DNA of 50,839 nt from a virus. The notes beneath the pieces are model-generated. The model did no database searches. It worked only from the letters and a program-made list of their open reading frames with translations, and was not told the DNA's origin. Shown here in pieces: positions 1 through 50,839 of this stretch (position 1 is the first letter of the stretch; the number at the start of each line of letters is the position of its first letter). The stretch is from positions 1-50,839 of IMG/VR virus record IMGVR_UViG_3300035698_009027; one strand, written 5' to 3'. A program made the position numbers and the translations under genes.

Positions 1-1
1 A

Positions 2-205
2 TACTTATTAGGAGTAGAAGGTAGTAAGAGTTTTGACCTTATAAGACAAGAACAGTCTTACTTAATGAAACTAGAAATTTCTGAAGATGTACGTAATTGG
101 TTACTTATGCATGATGTAGAAGTACAATCAAATGGTTCAAGAGTGTTTATCTGTAACAAAGTAAGGTATGTAGATTTAGGATTAAAAATACAAAAAGATG
201 AATAA
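2..205 (+). CDS. C-terminal end of an unknown protein (5' truncated)
   Basis: The window opens inside a gene. One frame stays open from base 2 to the TAA at 203-205 and gives 67 residues ending GLKIQKDE. It overlaps the next gene's ATG (198) by 8 bases, the tight packing seen throughout this strand, so it is very likely a real upstream gene. No domain is recognisable in the fragment, which mixes charged and hydrophobic residues without a membrane segment. It carries one of the very few CpG dinucleotides in the window, in a CGT arginine codon near base 92. Function unknown. Confidence 0.7.
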   Translation, partial: YLLGVEGSKSFDLIRQEQSYLMKLEISEDVRNWLLMHDVEVQSNGSRVFICNKVRYVDLGLKIQKDE

Positions 206-623
206 GTACTACAAACCAACAGAAGAAGAATTTGTTGAAGATTTAGAGTGTGAGTTGTATGATGAGGAGTTTAACTCATGGACTCCAGTGTTATTAGACA
301 GGAATGCTGCTAGTGCTTTTCTTCCATTGTGGCAAGCTGGGGACATTAGGGTTAAGTATTTAAACACTACTGATTTTAATAAAGTAGGATACACTTTAAA
401 GTTAAGTAAGGTAGGTACAGAGACTGTAATAGTTGACATTGCTCCTGATGGTAAAGAAACAAGTGAAGAGAGAGATGTGTATGACACAGAGAACTTAACT
501 ATCTTACATAAAAATGTGGAGGTAGGGTATTTCTATCCACAGAAACCTGTAGATAACATTAAAATGGATGGTAAACACTACAGTGTGAAGAACATAACAG
601 AGTTAAGAAAATTATTAATATGA
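198..623 (+). CDS. Hypothetical protein, 141 aa, acidic N-terminus
   Basis: I do not recognise this protein. Its first 30 residues are strongly acidic; the rest alternates short hydrophobic and polar stretches, as in a small beta-rich globular protein, with no signal peptide or membrane segment. The ATG overlaps the preceding stop region, and its TGA stop overlaps the next ATG (ATGA at 620-623), suggesting translational coupling. It lies in the run of small genes upstream of the packaging genes. A regulatory or capsid-assembly accessory role is possible, but nothing in the sequence decides it. Confidence 0.75.
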   Translation: MNKYYKPTEEEFVEDLECELYDEEFNSWTPVLLDRNAASAFLPLWQAGDIRVKYLNTTDFNKVGYTLKLSKVGTETVIVDIAPDGKETSEERDVYDTENLTILHKNVEVGYFYPQKPVDNIKMDGKHYSVKNITELRKLLI

Positions 624-1006
624 AAGCAAAAATAAATTTATTAAATATAAAGTCTTACCTTGTAGGCAATTTTAGATATGCCATTTATGAGAATAGATGG
701 AGCTTTCTTATAAGGAGACATATATTGGAGCAGATATATTGGAGAATTGAAGTTATGGACTATGTTTGTTACAAGGAAGGCAGTTGTATAATGTGTGGAT
801 GTACCACCACTGCTTTACAAATGTCAAACAAAGCTTGTGAAAAACCTTGTTATCCTACTATGTTAAGTAAAGATAATTGGAATACATTCAGAAGTGGAGG
901 TTTGATTAAGGATATAAGACTACAGGTAATTTGGAAGATGGTTAATAAAAAACCTGAAGTAGTGTACAGTAGTAATGAATTAATAAAAATAACTCACAGA
1001 CTTTAA
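620..1006 (+). CDS. Small Cys-rich, probably metal-binding protein (128 aa)
   Basis: The central part has a compact cysteine cluster: C-x2-C-x-C, then the hydrophobic stretch TTALQMSNKAC, then a C-x3-C-like pair in KACEKPCYP. This spacing resembles a small zinc or iron-sulphur binding knuckle. The N-terminal third is rich in aromatic and basic residues. From memory, similar small proteins with a CGC-TTALQ-NKAC signature occur near packaging genes of large Bacteroidota phages; I cannot verify this here. The ATG overlaps the previous TGA. Specific function unknown; a nucleic-acid-binding or assembly role is a guess. Confidence 0.75.
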   Translation: MKAKINLLNIKSYLVGNFRYAIYENRWSFLIRRHILEQIYWRIEVMDYVCYKEGSCIMCGCTTTALQMSNKACEKPCYPTMLSKDNWNTFRSGGLIKDIRLQVIWKMVNKKPEVVYSSNELIKITHRL

Positions 1007-1009
1007 TAT

Positions 1010-1312
1010 ATGAATTGGGAAGCAACACATATTGAGATAGATAAAGTAAAAGCAGGAGAGAAACACATAATGCTATTTAAAGCTGCTGGAAAAGTCCCAG
1101 AAGATTTTAAGATAGATAAGCTAGAAGTATCATGTGGTTGTACCACTCCTGAGTTTGATAAAGAACAAGGAACACTGTTAGTTACATTTAAAGCTGGAGC
1201 AGTGCCTAGACATTTACAAGAAGAAGGGAAGTATATAACAACTAAAAGAGTAATTTTGTCTTCTAATTATGGAGATACTACTTTCACTTTTAGAGCAACA
1301 ATTGTAAAGTAA
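1010..1312 (+). CDS. DUF1573-like small beta-sandwich protein (100 aa)
   Basis: The protein has the hallmarks of the DUF1573 family common in Bacteroidota: a motif V-S-C-G-C-T-T-P followed by a short loop, a hydrophobic strand (LLVTFKAG), a GKYITTKRVIL strand and an S-N-Y-G-D-T turn leading to a final FTFRATIV strand. Such domains are Ig/ASPM-SPD-2-like beta-sandwiches that usually face the periplasm or cell surface, but no signal peptide is visible here, so in a phage it could be a structural decoration or carrier domain. Its TAA overlaps the next ATG by one base. Family assignment is fairly sure; role unknown. Confidence 0.75.
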   Translation: MNWEATHIEIDKVKAGEKHIMLFKAAGKVPEDFKIDKLEVSCGCTTPEFDKEQGTLLVTFKAGAVPRHLQEEGKYITTKRVILSSNYGDTTFTFRATIVK

Positions 1313-1875: not shown

Positions 1876-2025
1876 ATGACAGTAACACAGACACTTAGCT
1901 TACACATAGAGGATAAAATTAGTTATCATGAAAAGCTTAGAATACAATTTGAAGCTAGTGAACAATTTGAGCAGTGTGCTAGGCATAGAGATGAGGTAAC
2001 AAAACTTAAAAAGATGTTAGCTTAA
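1876..2025 (+). CDS. 49-aa UVR-motif-like microprotein
   Basis: An ATG at 1876 opens a 49-residue frame ending in TAA at 2023-2025, whose last base is the first base of the TerL ATG. Residues about 19-48 follow the UVR motif of UvrB, UvrC and McsA: a charged helix, an F-E-x-C-A-R-x-R-D-E-V turn and second helix start, and a Lys-Leu-rich end (KLKKML). In UvrB and UvrC this helical hairpin mediates protein-protein contact. Exact gene-to-gene fit on both sides (3 bases after the previous stop, 1-base overlap with TerL) argues that it is translated. A packaging adaptor role would be speculation. Confidence 0.65.
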   Translation: MTVTQTLSLHIEDKISYHEKLRIQFEASEQFEQCARHRDEVTKLKKMLA

Positions 2026-4091
2026 TGGTTACAGAAACTAAGATTAGAGACAAAGATGGCAAGTGGCTGAAGAGTGACTTGTTCAGAGTAGAAGCTATTA
2101 AGTTCCAAAAGTATGGATACTTCTGTTCTGATTATTGGGGAACTGCAGGATGGATAGAATATTGGGAAGAGCAGTTAAAAAGATGTAAGGATGGATTTGA
2201 GATACAAGGAGAGAGAATAACAGGTCATCATTATATGTATCTAAATTTTTGTCAGATACAAGTAGTAAAGAAATTAGAAGGGAAGAAGGCTTCCAAGAAA
2301 ACAACTACTTTTCCAGATTTCTGGGATGGAGATTATGATTACTTTTGGTCTCTTGAGATTGCAAGAAATGGGATAGAGAAACAAGAGTTGGAGGACCTTA
2401 ACCTAGGGGTGAAACCACACCCTGACTTCCTAACAGGAGGTTTCCACATGATTGTGGGGAAGAGTAGAAGGAAAGGTTATAGTTACAAGAATGGAGCAAT
2501 TTCTGCTAACTATTATAATACTGAAAGAAAAGCACAGGTTATCATTGGTGCATCAGAAAAGAAGTTTTTGTACCCTAAAGGTACAATGGGTATGACAAGT
2601 GATTACCTAAACTTCCTTAATGAGTTTACAGGTTGGAGAAAATCCAGAGATTATGTAGACAAGCAAGACCATAGAAAAGCATCTTTTAAGAAGAAAATAA
2701 ATGGGGTAGATATTGAGTCTGGTTATCAGTCAGAAGTATTTGCCCTAACCTTTAAAGATAATGCTGATGCTGCCAGGGGTAAGGATGGTATAGTTGTATT
2801 ACTAGAAGAAGCAGGAGCATTTCCTAACTTAAAAGCTTCTTATGCAGCCATCAAACCTGCACTTACTGCAGGGATGTACATTACAGGACAAATCATTATA
2901 TTTGGAACAGGTGGAGATATGAAATCAGGTACAGCAGATTTTGCTGACATGTTTTATAATCCAGTAGCTTATGGCTTAATGCCATTCATTAACACTTGGG
3001 ATGACAATGCCCAAGAGACTACTTGTGGATTCTTCCACCCAGTGACAAAGAACCTAGAAGGGTTCTATGATTTGCAAGGTAATTCAAACATTCCTGCAGC
3101 CTTAGAGTTTGAACAATCAAGAAGAAAAGTCATACTTGAAAGTAGTAATAACAGTACAGCATATCAAAGACATGTTCAGGAGTTTGCACTAAAGCCATCA
3201 GAAGCTTTTTTAACAGTGTCCACAAATGATTTTCCTGTCATAGAATTAAGAGCACAACTTAACAGAGTATTAAGAGAAAAGTTGATGTTAAAGAAGGGAA
3301 CACCAGTCTCCCTAAGAAGAGCAGAAGGGGGTAAAATCCTAGCTGAACCAGATCTGGTCAACAAGTTAAACCCAATAATACATTACAAAGTAAAGGAAGC
3401 AGACTTAACAGGATGCCCTGTTATCTTTGAGTTTCCATCTAATCCACCTAAAGGCTTGTATAAAATAGGGTATGACCCTTATAGGCAAGACCAAACTTCT
3501 GGTGTATCTTTGGCAGCAGTATATGTTTACAAAACAATACAGAAAGGAAACAGCACTAAAAACATTATTGTTGCTACTTATGTAGGTAGACCACAGACCT
3601 CAGATTCCTGCAATAGAATTGTAGAGCTTCTAGCAGAATTATACAATGCAGAAGTAATGTATGAGAATGAAGTACCTGATGTAAAGAAATACTTTGAAAG
3701 AAGAAAGAAGCTACATTTACTTGCAGCACAACCTGATGGTGTAATATCTAAGAATATCAAAGCTTCAAGAGTAGCTAGAGTATATGGGTGTCACATGAAT
3801 GAGAAGTTGAAAGATGCTGGTGCCAAGTACATAAAGCAGTGGCTACTAGAGGAGAGGGATTTTGATGAAAATGGAGATGTACTACTAAATTTAGATTTTA
3901 TATATGATGTTGGTTTACTAGAAGAGTTGATTCTTTACAATAAAAAGGGTAACTTTGATAGAGTTATGTCATTGATGCAAGTTATGTTTCAAGTAGAGGA
4001 AGATGAACTAGGCAAAGAGTACTCTGACACAGGGGAACAAAACCAGAATATAAAAGACTTATTGGAACTTAATTTGTTTAACAAAAACTAA
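2025..4091 (+). CDS. terL: Terminase large subunit (packaging ATPase-nuclease)
   Basis: This is the DNA-packaging motor ATPase and headful nuclease, 688 residues, in the usual range for crAss-like TerL. An N-terminal segment with the conserved ITGHHYMYLNFCQI stretch precedes the ATPase. The Walker A-like loop is G-K-S-R-R-K-G-Y-S at residues 145-153, the Walker B strand with catalytic glutamates is D-G-I-V-V-L-L-E-E-A-G at 254-264, and a coupling motif G-T-G-G-D lies near 300. The RNase H-fold nuclease domain starts near 480, with its first acidic residue in G-Y-D-P-Y (D484). The start codon overlaps the stop of the preceding microprotein. The portal gene follows after 10 bases. Confidence 0.96.
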   Translation: MVTETKIRDKDGKWLKSDLFRVEAIKFQKYGYFCSDYWGTAGWIEYWEEQLKRCKDGFEIQGERITGHHYMYLNFCQIQVVKKLEGKKASKKTTTFPDFWDGDYDYFWSLEIARNGIEKQELEDLNLGVKPHPDFLTGGFHMIVGKSRRKGYSYKNGAISANYYNTERKAQVIIGASEKKFLYPKGTMGMTSDYLNFLNEFTGWRKSRDYVDKQDHRKASFKKKINGVDIESGYQSEVFALTFKDNADAARGKDGIVVLLEEAGAFPNLKASYAAIKPALTAGMYITGQIIIFGTGGDMKSGTADFADMFYNPVAYGLMPFINTWDDNAQETTCGFFHPVTKNLEGFYDLQGNSNIPAALEFEQSRRKVILESSNNSTAYQRHVQEFALKPSEAFLTVSTNDFPVIELRAQLNRVLREKLMLKKGTPVSLRRAEGGKILAEPDLVNKLNPIIHYKVKEADLTGCPVIFEFPSNPPKGLYKIGYDPYRQDQTSGVSLAAVYVYKTIQKGNSTKNIIVATYVGRPQTSDSCNRIVELLAELYNAEVMYENEVPDVKKYFERRKKLHLLAAQPDGVISKNIKASRVARVYGCHMNEKLKDAGAKYIKQWLLEERDFDENGDVLLNLDFIYDVGLLEELILYNKKGNFDRVMSLMQVMFQVEEDELGKEYSDTGEQNQNIKDLLELNLFNKN

Positions 4092-4101: not shown

Positions 4102-6498
4102 ATGGCAGATATTGGAAAAGGGGTTAGACTCTCACTACAGCAAAAGAACTCCAACAAAAAGCAATGGTTTAAAGACAGAGCCAATGCATTAAAAGGAGCT
4201 TCTTTTACTTCTTCTACTCACAGTGGGGGAGTATCAGAATACAAAAGAAAGAAAGTCAACTATGACTTGTACAACAACATTATAAACCAAGAAGATTTTG
4301 CTTATGTATGTAAGCCTTTTGGTGCTGGTTCAGGAGAATTACCTGCAACCTTTACAAACAAGGATATTACTTCTCCTAGAATAAAGGCAGTGATAGGGAT
4401 GGAAATGAAAAGACCATTCTCATTTAAGACACTAGCAGTTAATGAAGAAGCTACCAACAGAAAAGAAAAGGTAAAGTTTGACATGATTAAAGAGTACACT
4501 GTATCTCAAATTATGGCTCCTATACAAGCAGAGGTAGAACAGAAGTATCAAGCACAAGCAAAAGGTAGAGAACTTACTCCTGATGAATCAAAGCAGATAG
4601 AGCAAGCAATGGCTGAAGAGATGAAAGCTATGACACCCCCTGAAGTAGGGAAGTACATGTCTAGGCAACATCAAGATCCAGCTGAAGCACTTGGACATCA
4701 ACTGTTACAAGGGATTGTACAGAAGCAGGATGTAAAAAGAAAGTTTGACAAAGGTTGGAAACATGCAACATTATCTGGGGAAGAAATTTACTGGGTAGGA
4801 CAGGTTAGGGGAAAACCTAGCTTAGGAGTGACTAATCCTATTAGGTTTGATTATGACAAATCTCCTGATACAGATTTTATTGAAGATGGAGAATGGGCAG
4901 TAGCAGAATATAGAATGACACCATCTCAGTTTGTTACCATGTTTGGAGATGAATTGACAGATGAACAAATAGACCAAGCATACACTGAAGCAAAAGGTGG
5001 AGGTCCTACAAATGCTGGAGATTGGGCATTCAATGAAACTGAAAGCCAAACAGGAAACACTTTATCAGTTTTCCATTACACATGGAAAGGACTTAGAAGA
5101 ATAGGTTTCTTAGAGTATGCTGACTTAGCAACAGGAGAAACTCAGATGACTGTAGTTGGAGAAAACTACAAAATGGACAAAGACTTAGGAGACATAAAAA
5201 TGTCTTGGGAGTGGATTCCAGAAGTATATGAAACTTATGTAGCAAGAGGAGATATGTATCTTAGGATGCAACCTGTTGAAGGGCAACACAAAGATTTAAA
5301 CAATTTATTTGAATCTAAGCTACCTTATTATGGAGCAGCTTATGACAACTTAAATTCTGAGACAACATCATTGATGGACAGAATGAAAGTGTGGCAATAC
5401 TACTACAACATCATTATGTACAGGGTAGAGCTATTAATGGCTTCTGACAAGGGTAAGCTATTACTTATGAATATTAATGCCATACCTAAGTCTTCAGGTA
5501 TAGACATAGAGAAGTGGTTGTACTATGCAGAAGCTTTAAAGATAGGTTGGGTTAATCCTAATGAAGAAGGTAACAAAGGTTTAGATGTGACTAACATGGC
5601 TAAACAAGTTGACATGTCTTTAATGTCTGACATACAGAAGTATATTGACTTAGCAGGATACATAGATGACCAATGTGGGAAGTCTGTAGGTATTACTGAT
5701 GGGTTAATAGGACAGATTGAGCAAAGAGATGCAGTAGCAAATACACAACAGAATATGTCTTCTGCTTCTACTATCTTAGAACCTTACTTTGACTTACATA
5801 ATCATGTAAAGAGAAATGTACTTCAGGCACTGATAGAGCAATGTAAAATATCATACTCTGATTCAGAAGATGAATTTATTACATATACTTTAGATGACTT
5901 GTCTACTGAAATGTTAAAAGTAGATGCTGGACTATTAGATTCTTCTACTTATGGAATATTTGTAACCTCATCTTCTAAAGCTTATGAAGCAGTGGAACTA
6001 GTTAAACAACTAGCACATGCAGCACAGCAGAACAATTCTATAAAGCTGTCTAGTGTTATTAAAGTAATTAGAGCTGAAGGAATACAAGAAGCAGAAGAAT
6101 TACTTGAGACAGGAGAAAATGAAATGACTCAACAAAATCAAGCACAACAATTACAAGCTATACAAGAGCAAGGTAAAAATGAAGAAGCTGCAAGACAATG
6201 GCAAAGAGAGACAATGGATCTTACTCAAGCTAATACATTGGAGCAAATCCAAGCTAAAGGGGAAATTGACCTACAAAAGCAAGCTATGCTTTCTATGGGA
6301 TTCAATGAGAACAAAGACATGGATAATGATGGCACACCAGATATAGTAGAGCTATATAAGGATGGTGCAGATGCAGACTTAAAAATGAGGAAGCAGAATT
6401 TAGATGAAAAAAAGTTTGAAGAGGACAAGAAACAGAACAAAGAGAAAAACTCTATAGAGAAACAAAAAATAACTCAAGCAAAACAAAAGAAAGAATAA
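4102..6498 (+). CDS. Portal protein
   Basis: The 798-residue protein after TerL has the length and organisation of crAss-like portal proteins: a polar N-terminus, an alpha/beta wing-stem region (residues about 60-560) with long helices and the polar segment IEQRDAVANTQQNM near 540, and a long Gln/Glu/Lys-rich helical C-terminus that could form the barrel. The portal is the dodecameric ring at one capsid vertex through which DNA is packaged and released. Residues 739-750 form a near-perfect EF-hand-type loop (D-x-D-x-D-G-x-x-D-x-x-E), suggesting a calcium site in the C-terminal tail. The gene overlaps neither neighbour. Confidence 0.92.
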   Translation: MADIGKGVRLSLQQKNSNKKQWFKDRANALKGASFTSSTHSGGVSEYKRKKVNYDLYNNIINQEDFAYVCKPFGAGSGELPATFTNKDITSPRIKAVIGMEMKRPFSFKTLAVNEEATNRKEKVKFDMIKEYTVSQIMAPIQAEVEQKYQAQAKGRELTPDESKQIEQAMAEEMKAMTPPEVGKYMSRQHQDPAEALGHQLLQGIVQKQDVKRKFDKGWKHATLSGEEIYWVGQVRGKPSLGVTNPIRFDYDKSPDTDFIEDGEWAVAEYRMTPSQFVTMFGDELTDEQIDQAYTEAKGGGPTNAGDWAFNETESQTGNTLSVFHYTWKGLRRIGFLEYADLATGETQMTVVGENYKMDKDLGDIKMSWEWIPEVYETYVARGDMYLRMQPVEGQHKDLNNLFESKLPYYGAAYDNLNSETTSLMDRMKVWQYYYNIIMYRVELLMASDKGKLLLMNINAIPKSSGIDIEKWLYYAEALKIGWVNPNEEGNKGLDVTNMAKQVDMSLMSDIQKYIDLAGYIDDQCGKSVGITDGLIGQIEQRDAVANTQQNMSSASTILEPYFDLHNHVKRNVLQALIEQCKISYSDSEDEFITYTLDDLSTEMLKVDAGLLDSSTYGIFVTSSSKAYEAVELVKQLAHAAQQNNSIKLSSVIKVIRAEGIQEAEELLETGENEMTQQNQAQQLQAIQEQGKNEEAARQWQRETMDLTQANTLEQIQAKGEIDLQKQAMLSMGFNENKDMDNDGTPDIVELYKDGADADLKMRKQNLDEKKFEEDKKQNKEKNSIEKQKITQAKQKKE

Positions 6499-6590: not shown

Positions 6591-7775
6591 ATGCCAGGAA
6601 CAGAACAAACCCAAGACAACAAGACTGCAGAAGCACAAGCAGCAACAGACACAGCATTAGACAATTTTCAATGGGATGATACAGGAGGAGGAGACTTTTT
6701 TGGTATTGCTGAAACAGGAACCAAAGAAGATGTAAAACCTGATGTTGTTTCAGATGTTAAAAAGGAAGATGGAAAAGAACCCACTCCTAAAGCTGATACA
6801 AAGAAAGAAGGAGAAGAGGAAGATGAAGAAGAAGATAGTTTCTTTGATATTGTAGACAAGCCAGGAGAAACAAAAGAAGGAGAAGAGGACCAGGGAAGTG
6901 ATGAGGATGTAGATAAAGATTACTACAAAACTTTAGCTTCTAGAATGAAAGAAGATGGTATCTTTCAAAATGTAGATATTCCTGAAGGGGAAGATTTTAC
7001 AGAAGATAAGTTCATTGAATTACAGGATTTAGAGATAGATTCAAGGGTAGAGGAAGCTTTTGAGGGATTCTTTTCAGAACTAGACGCTGATGGTGCTGCA
7101 TTTTTAAAGCACAAGAAAGAAGGTGGAAGTACTGAAGATTTCTTTAAAACTTATGGTCAGAGTACAGGTGCTCCACAAGGAGACTTGGATGATGAGTCCT
7201 ATCAAGAACAGGTCAGCAGATATTACTATGAACAAGAAGGAGAAGATCCTGAAGACATAGATGATAAGATTGAGTGGCTTAAAGATAGTGGCAAGTTAGA
7301 AAAGTATGCACAGAAGTTTGATGGTAAGTTAAAAGAAAATGACAAGAAGACCAAAGAAGATTTAGCAAATAATACCAAAGCTGCAGAAAAGACTGCAGAA
7401 GAAGGTAGGTTAGCTTTTGCTACAAGTGTCCAAGAAGCTTTAGAAGCTATAGAAGAAGTGGACAACTTTAAATTTACTAAAGAGAGTAAGAAAACTTTAC
7501 TCCCTTTTATCACTAAAGCCACTGTAAAAGTTGGGAAGAACAAGCATATAACAGGTATGCAGGATAAGTTAAGTGCTACACTTAAAGATCCTAATAAAAT
7601 GTTAGTACTTGCTCAATTATTACAGAATGATTTTGATGTTTCTAGTATCATTAACAGTGCAACCACTGCTAAGACTAAAACATTGAAGGATGACATTCAA
7701 AGAAAAAAGACTTCTGTAAGACCTACAAATTCAGGTAAAGCAGGTAGTAGAAAAAGCCTTTCAGAATTTTTCTAA
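6591..7775 (+). CDS. Acidic scaffolding-protein candidate (394 aa)
   Basis: Between portal and major capsid genes lies a very acidic, Lys/Glu-rich protein of low complexity. Residues about 1-115 are disordered with long Glu/Asp runs, the middle has mixed helices, and residues about 240-350 form Lys/Glu/Ala-rich helices, with a basic C-terminal tail. This composition and place are typical of capsid scaffolding proteins, which fill the procapsid and whose basic C-terminal end docks on the capsid protein. No protease motif was seen. The assignment is inferred from position and composition; an internal head protein is an alternative. Confidence 0.7.
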   Translation: MPGTEQTQDNKTAEAQAATDTALDNFQWDDTGGGDFFGIAETGTKEDVKPDVVSDVKKEDGKEPTPKADTKKEGEEEDEEEDSFFDIVDKPGETKEGEEDQGSDEDVDKDYYKTLASRMKEDGIFQNVDIPEGEDFTEDKFIELQDLEIDSRVEEAFEGFFSELDADGAAFLKHKKEGGSTEDFFKTYGQSTGAPQGDLDDESYQEQVSRYYYEQEGEDPEDIDDKIEWLKDSGKLEKYAQKFDGKLKENDKKTKEDLANNTKAAEKTAEEGRLAFATSVQEALEAIEEVDNFKFTKESKKTLLPFITKATVKVGKNKHITGMQDKLSATLKDPNKMLVLAQLLQNDFDVSSIINSATTAKTKTLKDDIQRKKTSVRPTNSGKAGSRKSLSEFF

Positions 7776-7817: not shown

Positions 7818-9263
7818 ATGGTAGGTAACAAATTAATTACCAAACAAATGCCTTGGCATGCTAACATGACAGAGATGAACCATTTAGGTAAAGCTCTTAT
7901 TGCAAAGCCAGACAAGTTTGAGTCAAAAATTGGACAGTTGTTTACAGCTGAAAAGTATTCTGATAACCCTTTAACTGCTATGGCACTTAAAGAAGGTAGA
8001 GAGGAAAACACCAATTCTTCTATGTGGGAATGGGATATGCGTGCTGCAAGCACTAGACCTTTAGTAGTACTAGAAGATGTATCTCCTGGAGATACAACAA
8101 AAGGAAAGTTCAAAGGGACTTTCAAAATCAAATTAGATGAGAACTGGTATGAGCCAGGAGACATCATTACTCCAGGAACTACTAACAAGAAGTTCCAATG
8201 TAGAGTACAAGAAGAGCGTGTTCCTCATGGGAAAGGTTTTATCTACACTTTACGTTTGATGAGTGATAACCCACAATTGTTTATTCCTTCTATGTATTTC
8301 AAAGCAGGAACACAATGGGGTAAATTGTATTCTCAATATGCTGAAGCTGAAACTCAATCAGGTTCTACACAATATGCTTTGCCTATCACTATGGCAAACA
8401 GAATGTCTAGATTCAGAAAGAAGTACAAGGTTACAGGAGATGCACACAATGAGGTATTGGCTGTAAAGATTCCAGACTCAATGGGTACTTACCATGATTC
8501 ATGGGTTAAGTATGCAGAGGTAGAGTACTGGCAACAATGGTACAGAGAAATTGAAAGAGGATACTGGTACTCAAGAAGTACAGATTCAGTATTATCTGCC
8601 AATGGTAGACCAATCAGAACAGGACCAGGATTACAAGAGATGTTAGAAGATTCTCACACACAGCGTTATTCTCACTTAACTGCAAGGTTAATTGAAGAGT
8701 ACTTAATGGGTATTTTCTACTCAAGAGTTAAGCCAGGTGCTGCAAGAAAAATCAAAGGATATTCAGGTGAATATGGAATGATTAACTTCCACAGAGCTAT
8801 ACAAGATTGGGCAACTAAAACTGGATTTATTCAGGTGGTACAAGATTTATTTATCCAGAAGGGTTCTTCTGAATACAATGATAATGCTGTATCTGCAGGT
8901 TACCAATTCACAAAATACAGAATGGCAAATGGTGCTGAATTAGAATTAATTCACAATCCACTTTATGATGATAGAGAAATCAATTTTGAAATTGACCCTG
9001 TTACAGGTTACCCTCTTGAATCTCAAAGAATCACATTCTTAGATTTCTCAGGAGAAGGTAAATCTTCTAACTGTAGAATAGTAAACAAAAACAAGTCATA
9101 CAAACTTGGGTATGTTGCTGGTTTGACCAACCCTTATGGTCCTAATGATGGAAAGTTAATGAGCCATTCAGGTGACTTCTATGAAATGCATGTTGAGAAA
9201 CAATCAGGTATGCACATTGAAGACATTGGAAGATGTGGTGAATTAATCCTTTCTAGAAACTAG
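7818..9263 (+). CDS. Major capsid protein, HK97-fold, crAss-like
   Basis: The 481-residue product has features I associate with crAss-like major capsid proteins: a W-x-K-Y-A-E-V-E-Y-W-Q-Q-W-Y-R-E helix near residues 227-245, followed by ERGYWYSRST, the stretch NGRPIRTGPGLQEML, and a downstream LMGIFYSRV segment. It would build the icosahedral shell in several hundred copies. Unlike its neighbours it uses four CGT arginine codons (near 8040, 8217, 8253 and 8664) in a genome where CpG is nearly absent, which fits selection for fast decoding in a very highly expressed gene. An intrinsic terminator follows at 9283. No clear cleavage propeptide can be identified by eye. Confidence 0.93.
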   Translation: MVGNKLITKQMPWHANMTEMNHLGKALIAKPDKFESKIGQLFTAEKYSDNPLTAMALKEGREENTNSSMWEWDMRAASTRPLVVLEDVSPGDTTKGKFKGTFKIKLDENWYEPGDIITPGTTNKKFQCRVQEERVPHGKGFIYTLRLMSDNPQLFIPSMYFKAGTQWGKLYSQYAEAETQSGSTQYALPITMANRMSRFRKKYKVTGDAHNEVLAVKIPDSMGTYHDSWVKYAEVEYWQQWYREIERGYWYSRSTDSVLSANGRPIRTGPGLQEMLEDSHTQRYSHLTARLIEEYLMGIFYSRVKPGAARKIKGYSGEYGMINFHRAIQDWATKTGFIQVVQDLFIQKGSSEYNDNAVSAGYQFTKYRMANGAELELIHNPLYDDREINFEIDPVTGYPLESQRITFLDFSGEGKSSNCRIVNKNKSYKLGYVAGLTNPYGPNDGKLMSHSGDFYEMHVEKQSGMHIEDIGRCGELILSRN

Positions 9264-10968: not shown

Positions 10969-12000
10969 ATGTCAAGAAACAATGATGTTTTTACAGTATT
11001 AATTCCAACAGTTGCAACAATTGCAGTAGCAGGAACAGGCTTAGGTGCCTTAGCAGAAGGTGCTCTTGGAGCATTTGATTATGATACAAACTTAGCAGTA
11101 GATGGACCAGTAGATAAGTTCTTCTTTGCAGTAGGTATTAAAGATTTAGATGGTGTCTCTGACATCAACAGATCAGGTGGTACACACATCCAATCAAGAA
11201 ACATAGTATCTTTAACAAGCAACTGTTATACTGCACCTGTGCAGATGGTTACAGCTAGTGAGTTGAAAGTTATGCGTTGTGGTGGAGAAGTAGGTGTAAA
11301 AGTTGAAATCAGAAACCAAGAAGCTTACAGATTAAATGGTTACAATCAAGTTGTAAAAAACTTTATAGTACCAACATCTGAATGTGTTGATTGTGATTCT
11401 ACTTGTGAGGATGAAAATTCTGCTGCAGTTTTACAAAGCTTAGTTGATTTAATCAATGATGATGCTGATAAAGTTGTAGTTGCAAGTATTACAAGTGTAA
11501 CTGCAAATTCAGTAGTAACTCAAAGTTTAGTTATGACTGTTAATCCTAAATCATTGAAGAAATTCTCTGAAATTAACTTAGGATACTTTTTCCCTAACCA
11601 AACAGAAATCATTGTGACTTCTACAAAAGGGTTTAAGAATGCTACTATTACTACACCAATGGTGTATGAAGAAGGAGCAGGAACAGATGTTAAGCAATTA
11701 GAGTATGTTGCTAATGGATGGAAGAACAGTACTCCTTACAGAGTGTCTCCTTTAAATGGAGTTGCTTTAGAAGGTGCACAGTACTTTGCTGACCAAGATA
11801 AGAAGTATGATTTGATACACTTAAGTTATGACCAAGTTTCTGTTTCAGGATGGGAATCTAATGCTCATTTCATGAGAACAATCATTGCAACTTCTAATGA
11901 AGCAGGAGCTTTAAGTAAGAATGTAGGAGATTTTGTCAATGTAATGACAGCTGGTAAAGTTGATGCTATTGAAGTATGTGACAACCAACCTTCTTCTTAG
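10969..12000 (+). CDS. Abundant structural protein candidate (head fibre or decoration, 343 aa)
   Basis: The 343-residue protein begins with a small-residue, hydrophobic segment (residues about 8-33) and continues as a beta-rich body with a Cys-containing stretch near 138-147 (ECVDCDSTCEDE) that could bind metal or form a disulphide cluster. It carries one of the few CGT arginine codons of the genome and has its own strong terminator, both signs of high expression. A head-fibre, decoration or major tail-type role fits; a tail-tube protein is less likely if the virion is a podovirus. No homologue is recognised with certainty. Confidence 0.65.
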   Translation: MSRNNDVFTVLIPTVATIAVAGTGLGALAEGALGAFDYDTNLAVDGPVDKFFFAVGIKDLDGVSDINRSGGTHIQSRNIVSLTSNCYTAPVQMVTASELKVMRCGGEVGVKVEIRNQEAYRLNGYNQVVKNFIVPTSECVDCDSTCEDENSAAVLQSLVDLINDDADKVVVASITSVTANSVVTQSLVMTVNPKSLKKFSEINLGYFFPNQTEIIVTSTKGFKNATITTPMVYEEGAGTDVKQLEYVANGWKNSTPYRVSPLNGVALEGAQYFADQDKKYDLIHLSYDQVSVSGWESNAHFMRTIIATSNEAGALSKNVGDFVNVMTAGKVDAIEVCDNQPSS

Positions 12001-12087: not shown

Positions 12088-13029
12088 ATGGCAGACGTAA
12101 ATCATACATTAACTACACTACAAGATGTTAACTACATCTTAAACAATGAGCCTACAGCCATTGGATTTACTCTCTCTGAGATAGACCCTTGTACAGCAGA
12201 TAAGACCATTTTAGTAGGTACTATTGAGCCTGGGGTTAACTACAAGTTACCTATAAAAGTAGATGGCAGGTATAGTGTAAAGCTAGAACTGTTAGATACT
12301 GAATCTACTATTATAATAAACCATTATGTAAAGTTACAATTATCAACTATAGAGAGCATATTTTCTGTTACCTGTGATTGTGGTTGTGGATGTGCAGATT
12401 GCACAGACCTAAACTTAGACATATACAAAGCACTACTAGCAACAAGAAATAAGATAGATACCTTAAAATATTTGTCTTCTCCTAAGTATGACTCTTTCTT
12501 TCAGAAAGTTCATAAGGGAATTAGTTGTTTAATAGAGCCACAAATTTATTGTGACATTACTACAGAATCTGTAACAGGTGTATCACAATACAATTCACAA
12601 CTTACTAAAGATTTGATATCTTTAGATTATTTAATAATGTACTTTGCTGACCTTAGAGATGTTTCAGATTTAGATGAGATTGCTTACATCAATGATAAGT
12701 ATCAATCAGAGTCTATACTTTGTTGTATAAACTCTTCTGGAGTTAACATCAAAGAAATACAAGACATAGTAAATAGCACAACAACTACTACTTTATGTCC
12801 TGTATGTCCTGAGTACACAACAACAGCTTGTCCAACAACAACAACCACTACCACTGAAGAAGTAACAACTACTGAAGATCCAGTAACAACTACTACTACA
12901 GAGGACCCAGTTACAACAACAACTAGTACAAGTACAACAACAACAACTAGCACCACAACAAGCACAACTACAACTACCACAGCAGCACCAGATGATTGTG
13001 AGTTAGTAGGAACTGCAGATGAGGTATAA
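12088..13029 (+). CDS. Cys-rich protein with Thr-rich stalk (313 aa)
   Basis: Residues 1-100 are beta-rich. A cysteine cluster (TCDCGCGCADC, about 95-105) and a helical middle follow. Residues about 227-302 are a stalk dominated by threonine runs with interspersed Glu-Asp-Pro units and the terminal linker TTTTTTAAP. The last 11 residues, D-C-E-L-V-G-T-A-D-E-V, match a motif also found twice at the end of the next protein. The architecture suggests a virion surface protein with a flexible, possibly glycosylated stalk. No enzymatic domain was seen. Confidence 0.75.
   Translation: MADVNHTLTTLQDVNYILNNEPTAIGFTLSEIDPCTADKTILVGTIEPGVNYKLPIKVDGRYSVKLELLDTESTIIINHYVKLQLSTIESIFSVTCDCGCGCADCTDLNLDIYKALLATRNKIDTLKYLSSPKYDSFFQKVHKGISCLIEPQIYCDITTESVTGVSQYNSQLTKDLISLDYLIMYFADLRDVSDLDEIAYINDKYQSESILCCINSSGVNIKEIQDIVNSTTTTTLCPVCPEYTTTACPTTTTTTTEEVTTTEDPVTTTTTEDPVTTTTSTSTTTTTSTTTSTTTTTTAAPDDCELVGTADEV
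12780..12984 (+). repeat. ACA/ACT trinucleotide-rich tract coding a polythreonine stalk
   Basis: The 3' part of the preceding gene consists largely of ACA, ACT and ACC triplets with short pure runs such as consecutive ACA units near 12832 and 12918-12950. Because the unit is three bases, slippage would lengthen or shorten the stalk without breaking the frame. The tract may therefore vary between isolates. No ACG triplet is used. Confidence 0.7.
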
Positions 13030-13800: not shown

Positions 13801-14709
13801 ATGATAACAAAAATAACATTAACAACAGCAGGGATTGATACTACATCATTTACTTTGCATTCAGATGCAGACAATTATGCTGCAACTCTTGCAACTGTAA
13901 GTAGGTCTCAATTACTAGCAGGGTATGATGTTACAGTTCCTAGTGGCACAACAATAGTTAAAGTACAAGCTACAGGAGCTTGTTCTACTAGCATTTTGTT
14001 GTCAATAACAGCTACAACTGCAGCACCTGCAAATTGTCAAGTATGGACAGCTACAATGGCTGGACAAGTTCAATCAGGAGAAAGCATGACAGTTAATGCT
14101 GTTCTTTGTGATGGAAACAGTATTACTTATGTTTTATATGAAGGAGAGTCTGTAAACTTCTGTGGTACTATAACTAGTAGCACACTTAATGGAGGAACAC
14201 TAACCTCTGGTTCAGCTTGTACTTCTGCTTACAGAAGTGTAGTACTTGCATCTAGTGGGAACAATGATTACAGTGCTTGTGCTTCATCAAGTTACACAAA
14301 TTTCTATATGCCTAATGGTTCAAGACTATTAACTGCAACAAACATTTTTAGTGCTGCAAGTGGTGGAACAAGACCAGGTGCACTTTTCTTTAGAGAAGCA
14401 TCTACAATAGGTTGGAGACAATGGACTGGAACTGCATTTGGAGGACAAGGAGAATGTGTTTCTACAGATTGTAAAACATGGACATTGACTAGTAGTAATC
14501 ATCCATCAGGAGAGTTTACTGAAATAAGATATACTCCTTGTGAAGGAGGTCCTCAGATAACAATAACTACTGGAGGTCAGACAAGTCAATCTTTCTGTGC
14601 TGATATAGACTTTATAGAGATAGTAGATATGCCAGGATGGGATGGAGTTAAAGATGACAACATGGTTGGTGGATACAGTAATTTAACAGCAACAAGTCAA
14701 AGCTGTTAA
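13801..14709 (+). CDS. Surface protein, paralogue 2 (302 aa)
   Basis: The first about 78 residues repeat the N-terminal module of the preceding protein (LTLTTAGIDTT-F-L-S-AD-Y pattern, then V-P-S-G-T-T and a G-x-C-S turn), showing a tandem duplication. It is joined by a TTAAP linker to a different, Ser/Thr/Gly- and Cys-rich C-terminal part with two similar W-x-A/L-T-containing halves. It lacks the 11-residue tail motif. The shared N-terminus is likely an attachment or assembly domain and the C-termini the variable display domains. Its stop overlaps the next ATG by one base. Confidence 0.75.
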   Translation: MITKITLTTAGIDTTSFTLHSDADNYAATLATVSRSQLLAGYDVTVPSGTTIVKVQATGACSTSILLSITATTAAPANCQVWTATMAGQVQSGESMTVNAVLCDGNSITYVLYEGESVNFCGTITSSTLNGGTLTSGSACTSAYRSVVLASSGNNDYSACASSSYTNFYMPNGSRLLTATNIFSAASGGTRPGALFFREASTIGWRQWTGTAFGGQGECVSTDCKTWTLTSSNHPSGEFTEIRYTPCEGGPQITITTGGQTSQSFCADIDFIEIVDMPGWDGVKDDNMVGGYSNLTATSQSC

Positions 14710-25827: not shown

Positions 25828-25832
25828 TGTTC

Positions 25833-48561: not shown

Positions 48562-49209
48562 ATGAGCTTAATCCAAAGAATTTCAGACTTAACCATCAGG
48601 GTTGGTACTGAATTTAAAACAGTAAAAACGTTAATAGCAGGAACTGCATCTGGTAGTTTAACAGCATTAACAACAACAGTAAAGACAAGTATTCTTGCAG
48701 CAATCAACTCACTTAAAACTGAAGTAGATGGCAAGCAAGCAAATTTAGGTTACACACCTGAAGATGAAAACAACAAAGGTCAAGCAAATGGATATGCTCC
48801 ATTAGATGCTAATGCCAAAGTACCTGCTGCACATTTACCTGCTTATGTAGATGATGTATTAGAATCAGCTGATTTTGCTAGTTTACCAGCTTCTGGTGAA
48901 ACAAGTATTATCTATGTAACATTAGATGATAACATCACTTACAGATGGACAGGTTCAGGGTATGTAGAGATTTCTAAATCTTTAGCTTTAGGAGAAACTT
49001 CTTCTTCTGCATATAGAGGAGATAGAGGTAAGATTGCTTATGACCATTCACAGATTACAGATGCTAACCCACACCAAACTACATTTGAGCAATTATTAGC
49101 AAAACCTACAACAATTGCTGGGTTTGGAATTACAGATGCATTTACTAAAGATGAAATTGGAGATGTAACCACAAACTATGTGTCTGCATTTGAATCAGCT
49201 TTGCTATAA
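48562..49209 (+). CDS. Tail-fibre protein with collar-type modules (215 aa)
   Basis: A short N-terminal helical adaptor (MSLIQRISDLTIRVGTEFKTV) is followed by G-Q-A-N-G-Y-A-P-L-D-A-N-A-K-V-P and F-A-S-L-P-A-S-G-E-T-S-I-I-Y-V-T-L-D, then Y-R-W-T-G-S-G-Y-V-E-I, S-L-A-L-G-E-T-S-S-S-A-Y-R-G-D-R-G and H-S-Q-I-T-D modules typical of phage fibre shafts. The final residues are a short tip. It carries the only ACG threonine codon I found. The adaptor is shared with the next gene. Start chosen at the ATG after an AT-rich leader. Confidence 0.87.
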   Translation: MSLIQRISDLTIRVGTEFKTVKTLIAGTASGSLTALTTTVKTSILAAINSLKTEVDGKQANLGYTPEDENNKGQANGYAPLDANAKVPAAHLPAYVDDVLESADFASLPASGETSIIYVTLDDNITYRWTGSGYVEISKSLALGETSSSAYRGDRGKIAYDHSQITDANPHQTTFEQLLAKPTTIAGFGITDAFTKDEIGDVTTNYVSAFESALL

Positions 49210-49212: not shown

Positions 49213-49488
49213 ATGAGTCTAGTATCTAAAATATATGACTTAGCTGCAAGAATTGCACTAGAAATTAAATCACTTAGGGAGTCAAGGTTGAAAAATACCT
49301 CTGACACCCTAGATGGTGATTTAGATATTACAGGTTATGTTAAAGCAAATGGAACTGTTGAGGGATCTAATTTATCAGGTAACAACACAGGAGACCAAGA
49401 CACTATATACCCAATGGTACATAGTGCAAATATGATGATGAAGCAACAAACTGAATTTATTAAATCTATAAACAACAATTGGATATGA
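49213..49488 (+). CDS. Short fibre-like protein (91 aa)
   Basis: Its first about 22 residues (MSLVSKIYDLAARIALEIKSL) repeat the adaptor helix of the preceding fibre protein. L-D-G-D-L-D-I-T-G-Y-V-K-A-N-G-T-V-E-G then L-S-G-N-N-T-G-D-Q-D follow, the latter a classic tail-fibre motif. The protein ends soon after it, at N-N-W-I. Its TGA overlaps the next ATG (ATGA at 49485-49488). It is either a deliberate short subunit or a fibre split into coupled parts. Confidence 0.75.
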   Translation: MSLVSKIYDLAARIALEIKSLRESRLKNTSDTLDGDLDITGYVKANGTVEGSNLSGNNTGDQDTIYPMVHSANMMMKQQTEFIKSINNNWI

Positions 49489-49691
49489 CATCAGAAGAAA
49501 TAGCTATTATGGCTTTGCAACAAACTAATTCTGAATTAGTAGCTGCTGTTAATACAACCAAAGCAAATATAGAATCATCAATAAATGATGCAGTTGTCTT
49601 AGCTGGAGATACAGTAGTAGCAGGGTTAATATCAGTTACTAGTAATTCCATAGCTTCTAAGACTATGTTTCTTAGATACTTAAATAAATAA
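49485..49691 (+). CDS. Small helical protein in the fibre locus (68 aa)
   Basis: The frame begins at ATG 49485 (a TTG at 49479 would add two residues) and overlaps the previous stop as ATGA. It is almost entirely helical and rich in Ala, Ser and Thr, with no domain signature. It resembles a coiled segment of a fibre shaft. Together with its neighbours it suggests that the fibre is built from several small coupled subunits. Confidence 0.6.
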   Translation: MTSEEIAIMALQQTNSELVAAVNTTKANIESSINDAVVLAGDTVVAGLISVTSNSIASKTMFLRYLNK

Positions 49692-49694
49692 ATT

Positions 49695-50306
49695 ATGCCA
49701 ACAAATCAAGACATAGTAGACAACATAGTTGTTTTAGATGACTCAGTTCAAGAACTATTAATAGAAGCAGGAGTGACTAAAGATGCTGCTGATGCTTTAA
49801 TAGCTGCTTTTCAAGCAACAAAAGACAGAGTAGATAATGAACTAAGTGAAGTAGATAATACTACAGATGCTAATAAGCCTTTGAGTTTGTCTATCATAGA
49901 AGCACTACTACTTAAAGTAAATATAAATACTGTAAGTACTGTAAATGGGGTTTCCTTATTAACAGGTGTACCTTTAGTTATAGAAAGGGGTGCAGTATCA
50001 AGAAGAACATTATCTTATGAATTAAGAGGGACATTAAGAAGTCCTGCAGCACCATTACCAGTTGCTGATGATTCAGTAGTAATAGAATCTATAGGAGAAT
50101 TTATCTATGTAGAAAGCACAGGAGAACCTGATGAAGATGAAACATGTTTTACATCAGTACACCCAGATACAGGAGTAGCTATAGGACAATGGTTATTAGA
50201 AATACCACATCCAGACTACTTAAATGCAGCAGACTTATTTAAAGATGCTATCTTAGATGAATGGATGGAAGATGAAGAAATTAGAATAGCAGGTTACAAC
50301 AACTAA
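49695..50306 (+). CDS. Fibre-associated protein (203 aa)
   Basis: The N-terminal helix is acidic, followed by V-D-N-T-T-D-A-N-K-P-L-S and V-S-T-V-N-G-V-S-L-L-T-G-V-P-L-V-I, sequences common at fibre shaft junctions. The C-terminal half is an acidic beta domain (S-I-G-E-F-I-Y-V-E-S-T-G-E-P-D-E-D-E) followed by H-P-D-T-G-V-A-I-G-Q-W-L-L-E-I-P, probably a tip or receptor-contact domain. Starts 3 bases after the previous stop. Confidence 0.78.
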   Translation: MPTNQDIVDNIVVLDDSVQELLIEAGVTKDAADALIAAFQATKDRVDNELSEVDNTTDANKPLSLSIIEALLLKVNINTVSTVNGVSLLTGVPLVIERGAVSRRTLSYELRGTLRSPAAPLPVADDSVVIESIGEFIYVESTGEPDEDETCFTSVHPDTGVAIGQWLLEIPHPDYLNAADLFKDAILDEWMEDEEIRIAGYNN

Positions 50307-50318
50307 AAAACAATTCAA

Positions 50319-50839
50319 ATGATAACATTAAAAGCACGTAGAACTCTGAATGCTATTGAGACAGGGACTTTAGATAGTTCAGGTTTAGAAGCTAGATTAG
50401 CAGACCCTGGACATTTAGCAGAATTTTACAGTCTGTTAGCAACTAAAAGCCAAACTAGAAGAATGGCTTCAAGTGAATTAACAATGGAAGCAATTGCTTT
50501 TAGTGAAAAAGCTCACAAAGCTATTTTTCAATCTTCTACAAATTACAATACAACAGCTGCTCAAGCAGTTGCAGATAGTCCTGTAGCTATGGCTAAAATG
50601 GCTGTGTCATTAGATGCTTTAACAGTAGCTATTGAGAACCCAGTATCATGGGCATTATTTACAAACAGTCCTTACTATGAAGTAAACATTAAAACTATTG
50701 TAGCATTATTTGCTGGATTAGATGCAAGTCTGTATGAGTCTATTCAAGAAATGATAGAAGACCCTGCAGCAACTTATGAAATTGCAGCAAATGATAATGC
50801 AATGACTGCACTTGTAAATAGTACAATAGCTATGACTAA
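50319..50839 (+). CDS. Ala-rich repeat protein, 3' truncated by the window
   Basis: An ATG at 50319 opens a frame that stays open for 173 residues to the window edge (the last two bases belong to an incomplete codon). The product begins MITLKARRTLNAIETGTL and has repeated Ala/Met/Ser patterns (S-P-V-A-M-A-K-M-A-V-S and N-A-M-T-A-L-V-N-S-T-I-A-M-T), resembling the S-x-A-M-x-A-I-A repeats of phage tail proteins. An Ala-rich fibre or tail protein is likely. A CGT arginine codon occurs near 50338. Confidence 0.7.
   Translation, partial: MITLKARRTLNAIETGTLDSSGLEARLADPGHLAEFYSLLATKSQTRRMASSELTMEAIAFSEKAHKAIFQSSTNYNTTAAQAVADSPVAMAKMAVSLDALTVAIENPVSWALFTNSPYYEVNIKTIVALFAGLDASLYESIQEMIEDPAATYEIAANDNAMTALVNSTIAMT

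Follow-up and report, generated by a model that had tools for sequence, protein, structure and literature searches.

CpG depletion in crAss-like phages and the case for selection against the dinucleotide

Among the viruses of the human gut, crAss-like phages rank with the most abundant. Suppression of the dinucleotide CpG is familiar from RNA viruses and small DNA viruses of vertebrates, in which it proceeds via ZAP or via methylation and deamination. In phages, the avoidance of restriction sites, which are palindromes, is noted as a general phenomenon in passages of PMC4246573. Here, we describe a stretch of viral DNA of 50,839 nucleotides (IMG/VR record IMGVR_UViG_3300035698_009027; the whole stretch, positions 1–50839, is called the window) in which CpG is almost absent, and we compare it with its relatives.

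The window appears to be that half of a crAss-like phage genome which encodes the structural proteins. The products assigned as terminase large subunit (TerL; 2025–4091, plus strand, phrog_6681), portal protein (4102–6498, plus strand, phrog_6547) and major capsid protein (MCP; 7818–9263, plus strand, phrog_11589) match PHROG families and are homologous to crAss-like proteins, and judged by this homology the window is part of a crAss-like phage. The terminase served for phage placement and for the search for relatives; tblastn with TerL and MCP gave Fipvunavirus, crAss001, cr56_1 and phi14:2 among the matches listed. Fipvunavirus, the nearest named genus, has no order assigned in the NCBI taxonomy, and placements on long branches of the phage tree were flagged as unsure.

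CpG content of the window

Exactly ten CpG were counted in the window, against about 1,443 expected from mononucleotide frequencies (observed/expected, o/e, 0.007). The near-total absence reported by the first-pass annotation, with ten CG, is thereby confirmed; eight of its ten positions were exact and two (7084 and 50338) were each off by one, and its expectation of about a thousand was too low. It was also right that the depletion is specific to CpG, the other plus-strand ratios being 1.01 for GC, 1.16 for TG, 1.24 for CA, 1.27 for AG and 1.44 for CT, with AT second-lowest at 0.78. Two longer IMG/VR records are as CpG-poor as the window: G001 (67,838 b) covers all of it and G002 (62,118 b) covers 49,752 b, both at 100% identity and each with 12 CpG, so an assembly artefact is unlikely. 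Neither the window nor these records exceed a ratio of 0.3 or return to normal CpG elsewhere.

The coding set (41 ORFs, 48,222 coding bases) contains 8 CpG; when the codons were redrawn with the proteins preserved, at the codon frequencies of four related phages (50 draws per phage), the means ranged from 564 to 1,445, and redrawing with the window's own codon usage gave 510. At codon junctions 2 CpG were observed vs 547 expected.

Four of the ten residual CpG lie in the MCP gene, every one a CGT arginine codon (8040–8041, 8217–8218 and 8664–8665 in the context GCGT, 8253–8254 in ACGT), the remaining arginines of this gene being encoded by 21 AGR codons; nearly all arginine codons of the window are AGR. 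Another CGT arginine codon is at 11275–11276 (GCGT, ORF 10969–12000). The others are at 92–93 (ACGT), 7085–7086 (ACGC, ORF 6591–7775), 12096–12097 (ACGT, ORF 12088–13029), 48629–48630 (ACGT, ORF 48562–49209) and 50337–50338 (ACGT). The intervening 36.5 kb (12098–48628) are free of CpG and include two plus-strand Thr/Ser repeat genes (17839–19542 and 20190–21824), in which, as had been remarked, there is no ACG or TCG codon.

Spread of the depletion and loss of palindromes

The first-pass annotation called such depletion unusual for a phage, which looks right with the qualification that it recurs in crAss-like phages, crAss001 included. CpG depletion comes in degrees and reappears across separate crAss-like branches: 9 CpG were counted over the whole record of a divergent 89-kb relative (o/e 0.006), Bacteroides phage crAss001 has an o/e of 0.03 in the 50 kb examined and the cultured Fipvunavirus Fpv20 of 0.08, and other relatives reach up to 0.9. 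Normal or high CpG is no bar to thriving on Flavobacterium psychrophilum, as seen from Fpv5, isolated on the same host strain as Fpv20 (950106-1/1; 1.54 vs 0.08), and 6H, from the same host species (0.96). The idea that the phages imitate a host genome devoid of CpG, or reflect a host mutational bias, deserves next to no credence: we found no evidence in its support, the CpG contrast just described was seen between phages of a single host strain, and TACGAT occurs hundreds of times in each of 296/296 Bacteroidota genomes drawn (judged by eye, the minimum was 318, for a genome of 1.6 Mb, and the smallest ratio to a control word about 0.2) and not once in G001, in the crAss-like record G029 or in the half of crAss001.

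The pressure could also be self-imposed, if a phage-encoded CpG-cutting nuclease destroyed host DNA and the phage's own genome had to be CpG-free. The almost complete lack of CpG throughout the 89-kb record and the nuclease genes common to the clade agree with this. We nevertheless hold it improbable, as we found no protein family shared by all six purged genomes and missing from all seven CpG-richer ones (several genomes being incomplete), G033, with a CpG ratio of 0.39, has 35 of the 37 families present in at least four purged genomes, and the top candidate, found in 4/6 purged and 0/7 richer genomes, is a weak PRTRC_A match (NCBIfam, 18.9 bits, cut-off 101.8).

Many of the CpG-depleted phages also lack GATC, CTAG or GGCC. 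Observed over expected counts in G029, Fpv20 and crAss001, respectively, are 0/223, 2/224 and 0/174 for GATC, 4/215, 14/244 and 2/276 for CTAG, and 0/36, 1/39 and 0/54 for GGCC; in the window, GGCC (0/37) falls short of composition along with CpG. The CpG ratio declines as the number of purged palindromes rises (rho -0.60, 28 genomes that are not 28 independent points because they are mutually related). The coupling between purging and CpG loss is loose, as seen from cr107, without GATC and GGCC yet with CpG at 0.68, from G014, with none of 11 tetramers purged yet CpG at 0.19, and from the window, where GGCC is the sole purged word of the 11 despite almost no CpG.

These palindromes bear on whether DNA or RNA is sensed. 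Because CpG reads identically on both strands, a DNA target and an RNA target look alike in sequence data, and with 48,222/50,839 bases of the window coding, a host factor that acts on phage transcripts by binding or cleaving their CpG, in the manner of ZAP in vertebrates, might be considered. We give it a slight chance: some of the co-purged words are palindromes of the kind usual in DNA restriction, CpG is retained in tRNA genes of crAss001 (18 of its 44 CpG are within 1.73 kb of tRNA genes), and we know of no bacterial ZAP-like factor for CpG in RNA.

CpG is depleted in 10/10 NCGN contexts, save for CCGG in some phages, which is spared in G014 (0.99), G015 (1.27), G025 (1.11) and G032 (0.80) and partly in G017 (0.45). 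In strongly depleted genomes CCGG is zero, mildly beyond the general CpG loss (expected 3.0 in Fpv20, 2.7 in G006 and 6.3 in G010). The contexts of residual CpG differ between phages, RCGY only in the window and ACGA, CCGA, TCGA and ACGT in G029, which counts against one fixed enzyme. Many ordinary restriction-modification systems with longer CpG-containing sites (CCGG, GCGC, TCGA, ACGT, CGCG, GCSGC, CGCAG and others), summed over time on phages without DNA modification, could instead have acted without any two-base enzyme. Site purging in these phages is indeed strong, some palindromes lie below the CpG average (TCGA 0/258 in G006, ACGT 2/167 in Fpv20, CCGG 0 in both), and the sites of F. psychrophilum CSF259-93 include CCGG, CGCG, GCSGC and CGCAG, according to sections of PMC11837570. 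The counts speak rather against such a sum, since ACGA is equally depleted (0/471 in G001 and G002 together, 4/392 in G029, 6/298 in crAss001). To our knowledge, ACGA is in no common four-base recognition site. Six-base CpG contexts were no more uneven in crAss-like phages at CpG 0.08–0.46 (chi2/df 1.7–3.3) than in phages at 0.59 or above (1.3–4.2), with Fpv5 (6.65) set aside, near-zero genomes excluded and lower power where CpG are few. We regard this explanation as rather unlikely, while giving it more weight than those above.

Differences between close relatives

Changes of T/C and A/G that form or break CpG were compared with identical changes in other contexts, in pairs from Fipvunavirus, crAss001 and the window's clade, for which the closest pair is G001–G006 (81% coding identity over the aligned region). 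Where CpG is involved, synonymous T/C differences are 4- to 40-fold less frequent than in other contexts. At third positions of NNY codons, they number 6/2,934 before G vs 132/6,175 before A or T for Fpv20–FpV4, 1/704 vs 64/1,559 for crAss001–Bcn2 and 2/275 vs 166/622 for G001–G006. Between Fpv20 and Fpv1 (99.78% identical), 130 CpG are kept and 2 changed, and CpG-forming T/C or A/G differences are 1/10,288 vs 44/30,160 before A and 49/35,524 before T. Other changes at fourfold sites behave alike: T<->G (2/168 involving CpG vs 23/132 elsewhere) and A<->C (0/90 vs 21/127) in G001–G006, and A<->G (0/369 vs 26/429) in crAss001–Bcn2. With few events, fourfold T<->C in Fpv20–Fpv1 (0/1,260 vs 4/3,273, p 0.58), A<->C in four Fipvunavirus pairs (p 0.11–1.0) and G<->C in 8/8 pairs were not significant. 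As a control, 46 CpG-normal pairs, drawn from 38 loci whose CpG o/e was at least 0.5, gave ratios of 0.75–1.14, with p < 0.05 in 1/46. Transitions and transversions involving CpG are therefore suppressed while CpG-normal pairs are unaffected, which indicates that purifying selection on CpG itself, and not mutation, maintains the depletion.

CpG methylation followed by deamination, a cause suggested by the first-pass annotation, finds no support here. If host-methylated cytosines in CpG decayed to TpG or CpA, hypermutable CpG would make CpG/TpG/CpA differences at least as frequent as normal; the rarity found instead is already present at 0.2% divergence, where 130/132 CpG are intact, is absent in CpG-normal pairs and extends to transversions to or from CpG. 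In the window, fourfold third positions before G are A in 0.57 and T in 0.40, vs 0.375 and 0.51 elsewhere, and a nineteenfold CpG gap separates two phages of one host strain. Turnover of CpG between Fpv20 and FpV4 is, on the other side, above average (20/110 changed vs about 4 expected at 1.9% divergence), and 16 of these 20 are CG <-> TG or CA. A cytosine-5 methyltransferase was found neither in Fpv20, crAss001, G029 and the window's records nor in the other crAss-like records searched; PF00145 was matched in 0/26 and 0/8 viral records and the enzyme in 0/3 MAGs carrying crAss-like terminases. The only phage matches were Fpv5 (CpG 1.54) among five records, 6H giving none, and phi4:1 (0.25 in 30 kb) among nine. 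Mutational decay is thus very improbable.

A possible CpG-directed host defence and known systems

Besides deamination, the first-pass annotation had listed CpG-directed restriction by the host or another CpG-sensing pressure. CpG-directed selection fits best, since many of these genomes have also been purged of palindromes of the restriction type. CpG loss looks like evolved evasion of a bacterial defence. On this reading, the phage lineage is under purifying selection against CpG in every flanking context and has shed nearly all of it through synonymous and codon-junction changes, and the agent may be a restriction enzyme or comparable defence in Bacteroidota hosts, for which CpG in phage DNA is a two-base palindromic target and so one more purged 'restriction site'; we put the chances of this reading at about even. 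Some of these phages spare CCGG and others lack it, which suggests, with less confidence, that cytosine methylation at CCGG may block the agent. Single CpG would be tolerated where function may need them, in tRNA genes of crAss001 and possibly in the capsid CGT codons, so that each site would be costly and not lethal. It is a more tentative proposal that a widespread, undescribed Bacteroidota defence reads bare unmethylated CpG, is blocked by CCGG methylation and has repeatedly been escaped by crAss-like phages. No enzyme recognising bare CG was found in this analysis, and we know of no published one with such a site on unmodified DNA; this and the phages of normal or high CpG on the same host species count against a two-base agent. 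In F. psychrophilum, the Fpv host, each strain has about ten methyltransferases, and the sites of several include CpG, as described in PMC11837570.

The depletion in the model isolate crAss001 makes the cause testable in culture. A CpG-directed defence would be a bacterial counterpart to animal self/non-self recognition by CpG, would account for the odd codon and dinucleotide usage of this major group of phages and would point to easier entry into these bacteria for DNA that is free of CpG or methylated at it. Host prediction from dinucleotides can fail, as the phages of one host strain at 0.08 and 1.54 illustrate.

As in restriction-site avoidance, short palindromic words are almost wholly lost, most strongly in particular lineages; unlike it, a bare dinucleotide is purged with all flanks, to about 0.6% of expectation over 50–90 kb. 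Vertebrate viruses share the dinucleotide and the selection at synonymous sites, whereas here the host is bacterial, the virus a large dsDNA phage, the ratio 0.006–0.03, and restriction palindromes are lost too. Fipvunavirus (Fpv1, Fpv4 and Fpv20, on F. psychrophilum), the nearest named among the matches listed (TerL 50%, MCP 61.5% identity), resembles the window in structural gene order and in low CpG (0.08), which is still about 10 times higher, and differs in having GATC and CTAG purged. Fpv5, with high CpG and its own cytosine-5 methyltransferase, is the opposite of Fpv20 in composition, but has CATG at 1/199 expected. Finally, crAss001 (Kehishuvirus, Steigviridae) is like the window in its CpG of 0.03 and its absence of GGCC in the 50 kb examined, and unlike it in a distant MCP (25.7% identity), in the near absence of GATC and CTAG and in the share of its CpG that falls in tRNA genes.

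Extent of CpG loss in the window phage

The 50,839 bases of the window contain 10 CpG dinucleotides, against 1,443 expected from base composition, an observed/expected ratio (o/e) of 0.007. The ten positions listed in the first-pass annotation were confirmed by recount, within one base each, and its view that the loss is specific to CpG also holds, the GC, TG and CA dinucleotides being normal or raised. A null model preserving the encoded proteins gave mean CpG counts of 510 to 1,445, compared with the 8 observed in 41 ORFs; codon junctions hold 2 CpG out of 547 expected, and arginine is encoded, in the 39 ORFs counted, by 474 AGA or AGG codons versus 5 CGT codons. Two longer IMG/VR records of the same phage, G001, which holds the whole window, and G002, which holds 49,752 b of it, both at 100% identity, contain 12 CpG apiece.

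The residual CpG lie partly at places where function could require them. CGT arginine codons account for five of the ten in the window, four of these in the capsid gene, and in the Bacteroides phage crAss001 18 of 44 CpG are found within 1.73 kb of tRNA genes, ten of the 18 being TCGA (tRNA genes were looked for in the window, the structural half, and none was found). All ten window CpG have the form RCGY; at a chance of ~0.28 per site, from neighbour counts, ten out of ten would occur about three times in a million, the CGT codons contributing to this bias. The nine residual CpG of G029, a divergent relative, are without it.

The terminase, portal and capsid genes of the window match phage families of the same function, and the nearest named phages, among the matches listed, are the Fipvunavirus of Flavobacterium psychrophilum (large terminase, TerL, 50% and major capsid protein, MCP, 61.5% identity), with crAss001, cr56_1 and phi14:2 more distant. 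Related terminases also occur in three assembled-genome loci, from Prolixibacteraceae (42%), one bacterium (45% over half the protein) and Spirochaetaceae (30%), which are remote matches and could stem from faulty binning; those in the Prolixibacteraceae and Spirochaetaceae assemblies (L082 and L084) are crAss-like, and the latter family would be an unusual host unless binning was at fault. Other genes of the window include two near-pure Thr/Ser-rich repeat genes with NTSKSTTT-like units (17839-19542 and 20190-21824, 567 and 544 aa); for the second, a tblastn search of 50,697 phage records (E 1e-5, low-complexity filter on) gave no match. Two genes among those of the tail (14709-15152 and 19564-20172) look by eye to be of nucleotidyltransferase type, with no Pfam match, and a PD-(D/E)XK nuclease gene (25827-26615) within the structural module is shared by 5 of 6 CpG-purged, 2 of 4 intermediate and 3 of 7 CpG-richer genomes.

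Distribution of the trait among phages and hosts

Among the 45 loci retrieved with the window TerL, two of which are the window phage and some others near-duplicates, CpG o/e is below 0.02 in 6, below 0.1 in 22, below 0.2 in 29 and at least 0.5 in 7. Among the 50 retrieved with the crAss001 TerL (crAss001 itself included) it is below 0.1 in 10, below 0.2 in 24 and at least 0.5 in 6, and none of the 15 loci found with the phi14:2 TerL or of the 3 found with the cr107 TerL falls below 0.2. G029 retains 9 CpG in 89,359 b (o/e 0.006) despite only 50% TerL and 35% MCP identity to the window; the ratio is 0.08 in the whole genome of the Fipvunavirus Fpv20 and, in the first 50 kb, 0.030 in crAss001 and 0.037 in its relative PhiCrAssBcn2. 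Strongly depleted phages have less depleted neighbours on the TerL tree (G029, 0.006, and G031, 0.188; Fpv20, 0.082, and G033, 0.389; crAss001, 0.030, and phi14:2, 0.461), the longest branches, including crAss001 and phi14:2, being flagged as unsure; the degree of depletion has therefore changed repeatedly. The tree, built without the window phage (L001 and L002), kept 54 of 56 rows, the other two having fewer than 380 aligned residues. Some sequences were read in part: bases 1-50,000 of crAss001 and PhiCrAssBcn2 (full records in the methyltransferase search), 40 kb of cr107_1 and cr124_1, and 30 kb of four Cellulophaga phages; the phi14:2 concatenation lacked 1,999 bases, G017 its last 434 and G025 its last 1,203, and G030 was used at 20,000 b in the earlier analyses, up to the NCGN-context counts, and at 22,859 b in the later ones.

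Low GC content as the cause is ruled out by L183, with a GC of 0.42 yet a CpG ratio of 0.042. Mimicry of host composition is also rejected: Fpv20 (0.08) and Fpv5 (1.54) are both listed with the host F. psychrophilum 950106-1/1, and a CpG-containing word, TACGAT, is present in the hundreds in all 296 Bacteroidota genomes drawn, versus 0 in G001, G029 and the crAss001 half (minimum values read by eye). In 6H, a phage of F. psychrophilum strain MH1 that encodes a putative integrase, the ratio is 0.96. Fpv5 (L089, KU599880) represents the opposite extreme, with AG/CT at 0.43, TA at 0.47, 1 CATG of 199 expected, no CGCG of 73 expected, CCGG 4.35-fold above expectation, and a C5 methyltransferase gene at 30491-31462.

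A phage-encoded cause is unlikely, since no protein family was found in all six purged and none of seven CpG-richer genomes (some of them partial, including that of the window), and G033, with a CpG ratio of 0.39, has 35 of the 37 families present in at least four purged genomes. A self-encoded nuclease is likewise rejected, as no gene tracks the trait. The homing-endonuclease genes of Fpv20, considered as CpG islands, are only slightly richer (9 CpG in 3,675 b) than the rest (125 in 86,262 b), which does not bear out a match with the CpG peaks. A conserved cassette with a ThiF/E1-like protein (L088:13191-16467), next to a gene whose homologue in the relative G006 is a weak PRTRC_A match, was discarded as a marker of the CpG-poor clade: ThiF-type genes are also present in PhiCrAssBcn2 and G033, with no link to CpG.

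Selection against CpG itself

Mere hypermutability of CpG would leave the formation of new CpG at its usual rate, and T/C differences between very close isolates would then be at least as frequent before G as before A or T. Of the 89,148 sites aligned between the Fipvunavirus phages Fpv20 and Fpv1, 194 are different, with 130 CpG conserved and 2 changed; their T/C differences (A/G on the other strand) number 1/10,288 in the CpG-forming context, compared with 44/30,160 before A, 49/35,524 before T and 13/12,887 before C. The direction is the same for Fpv20 against FPSV-S29, FpV4 and G034, and weaker against G030. Synonymous third-position T/C differences, before G vs before A or T, are 0/3,570 vs 22/7,832 for Fpv20-Fpv1, 6/2,934 vs 132/6,175 for Fpv20-FpV4, 12/1,788 vs 285/3,849 for Fpv20-G034, 15/713 vs 132/1,600 for Fpv20-G030, 1/704 vs 64/1,559 for crAss001-PhiCrAssBcn2, 2/275 vs 166/622 for the window phage and G006, and 23/415 vs 174/729 for G012-G019; suppression is weaker (23/737 vs 98/1,265) in the less depleted pair G015-G025 (CpG ~0.33). 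Transversions at fourfold sites are also suppressed (window phage-G006: T<->G 2/168 vs 23/132, A<->C 0/90 vs 21/127). Taken one by one, the fourfold tests that rest on few events do not reach significance, and pairs sharing Fpv20 or G001 are not independent. In 46 control pairs from 38 loci with o/e of at least 0.5, many sharing a member and those with <1,500 codon bases or <0.2% divergence skipped, the ratios are 0.75 to 1.14, with p <0.05 in one.

Since differences involving CpG, both transitions and transversions, are suppressed and CpG-normal control pairs show no such effect, CpG itself is selected against in Fipvunavirus, in crAss001 and in the clade of the window, whose genome enters the comparison through G001. 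Methylation followed by deamination, an option offered in the first-pass annotation, does not agree with T/C differences that are rarer, not commoner, before G in close isolates. No C5 methyltransferase (PF00145) was found in the crAss-like records searched, including the full crAss001 record, and CA/TG excess, uninformative at equilibrium and not tracking CpG loss, was set aside as a test. The unrelated, moderately CpG-poor Cellulophaga phage phi4:1 (L156; 0.25 in 30 kb, CCGG 0/32) carries its own C5 methyltransferase, a finding more in keeping with deamination than the others are; moderate depletion is thus not confined to crAss-like phages. In crAss-like phages, selection against CpG is extreme, linked to lineage and repeatedly changed; no prior report of CpG-poor phages appeared in titles or abstracts among the matches listed from the open-licence literature, which is not proof of absence.

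Restriction-type words and a candidate defence

Many CpG-poor crAss-like genomes also bear the mark of restriction avoidance at words without CpG. The observed/expected counts of GGCC are 0/37 in the window, 0/58 in G006, 0/77 in G010, 0/36 in G029, 1/39 in Fpv20, 0/50 in phi14:2 and 0/54 in crAss001; those of GATC are 0/223 in G029, 2/224 in Fpv20, 2/261 in G010, 0/338 in G017 and 0/174 in crAss001; and those of CTAG are 4/215 in G029, 14/244 in Fpv20, 18/430 in G017 and 2/276 in crAss001. CTAAG, CTCAG, CACTG, GACTC, GTCAC, AAGCTT and CTTAAG are purged in both G029 (L123-L127) and Fpv20 (L085, L088), the TerL of each being ~50% identical to that of the window, and these common words suggest that their hosts have a similar restriction repertoire. 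CpG o/e falls as more non-CpG tetramer palindromes are purged (rho -0.60 in 28 phage genomes, -0.61 in the 22 crAss-like ones, uncorrected for kinship), with counterexamples in cr107, which is without GATC and GGCC at a CpG ratio of 0.68, and G014, with none purged at 0.19.

CpG is lost across all flanking contexts, with the exception of CCGG. ACGA, which is not known to be part of any common 4-base recognition site, has observed/expected counts of 0/471 in G001 and G002 together, 4/392 in G029 and 6/298 in crAss001. CCGG is spared in G014 (L064-L068; o/e 0.99 vs 0.08-0.30 in other contexts) and also in G015 (L074-L075), G025 (L081) and G032 (L132-L134), the four together ranging over 0.8-1.3 vs 0.08-0.6 elsewhere; the sparing is partial in G017 and slight in crAss001 (0.13, other contexts 0-0.07). 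It is absent from the records of the window phage, G029, Fpv20, G006, G010, G012, G019, G030 and G031, absences individually mild given the overall CpG loss (3.0 expected in Fpv20, 2.7 in G006, 6.3 in G010), and clearly lacking in phi14:2 (1 vs 24 expected) and 6H (9 vs 35). A longer motif containing the spared CCGG was not seen in the five genomes examined, the G014 sites being spread throughout. A simple reading is that CCGG may be methylated in some hosts and so shielded from a methylation-sensitive CpG agent; as PF00145 had no match in the five sparing records (G014, G015, G017, G025 and G032), such methylation would be the host's.

The main alternative is that CpG loss adds up from the avoidance of numerous restriction sites that contain CpG within a longer word. 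Restriction-modification systems at CCGG, CGCG, GCSGC and CGCAG are indeed carried by F. psychrophilum strain CSF259-93 (PMC11837570), but contexts of the ACGA type are lost as well. We favour, with a confidence kept moderate because no enzyme was found, though the ACGA-type loss counts against the main alternative, a candidate agent in the form of a Bacteroidota defence directed at CpG, which these phages would escape and which would work in the manner of a restriction system whose target is only two bases long.
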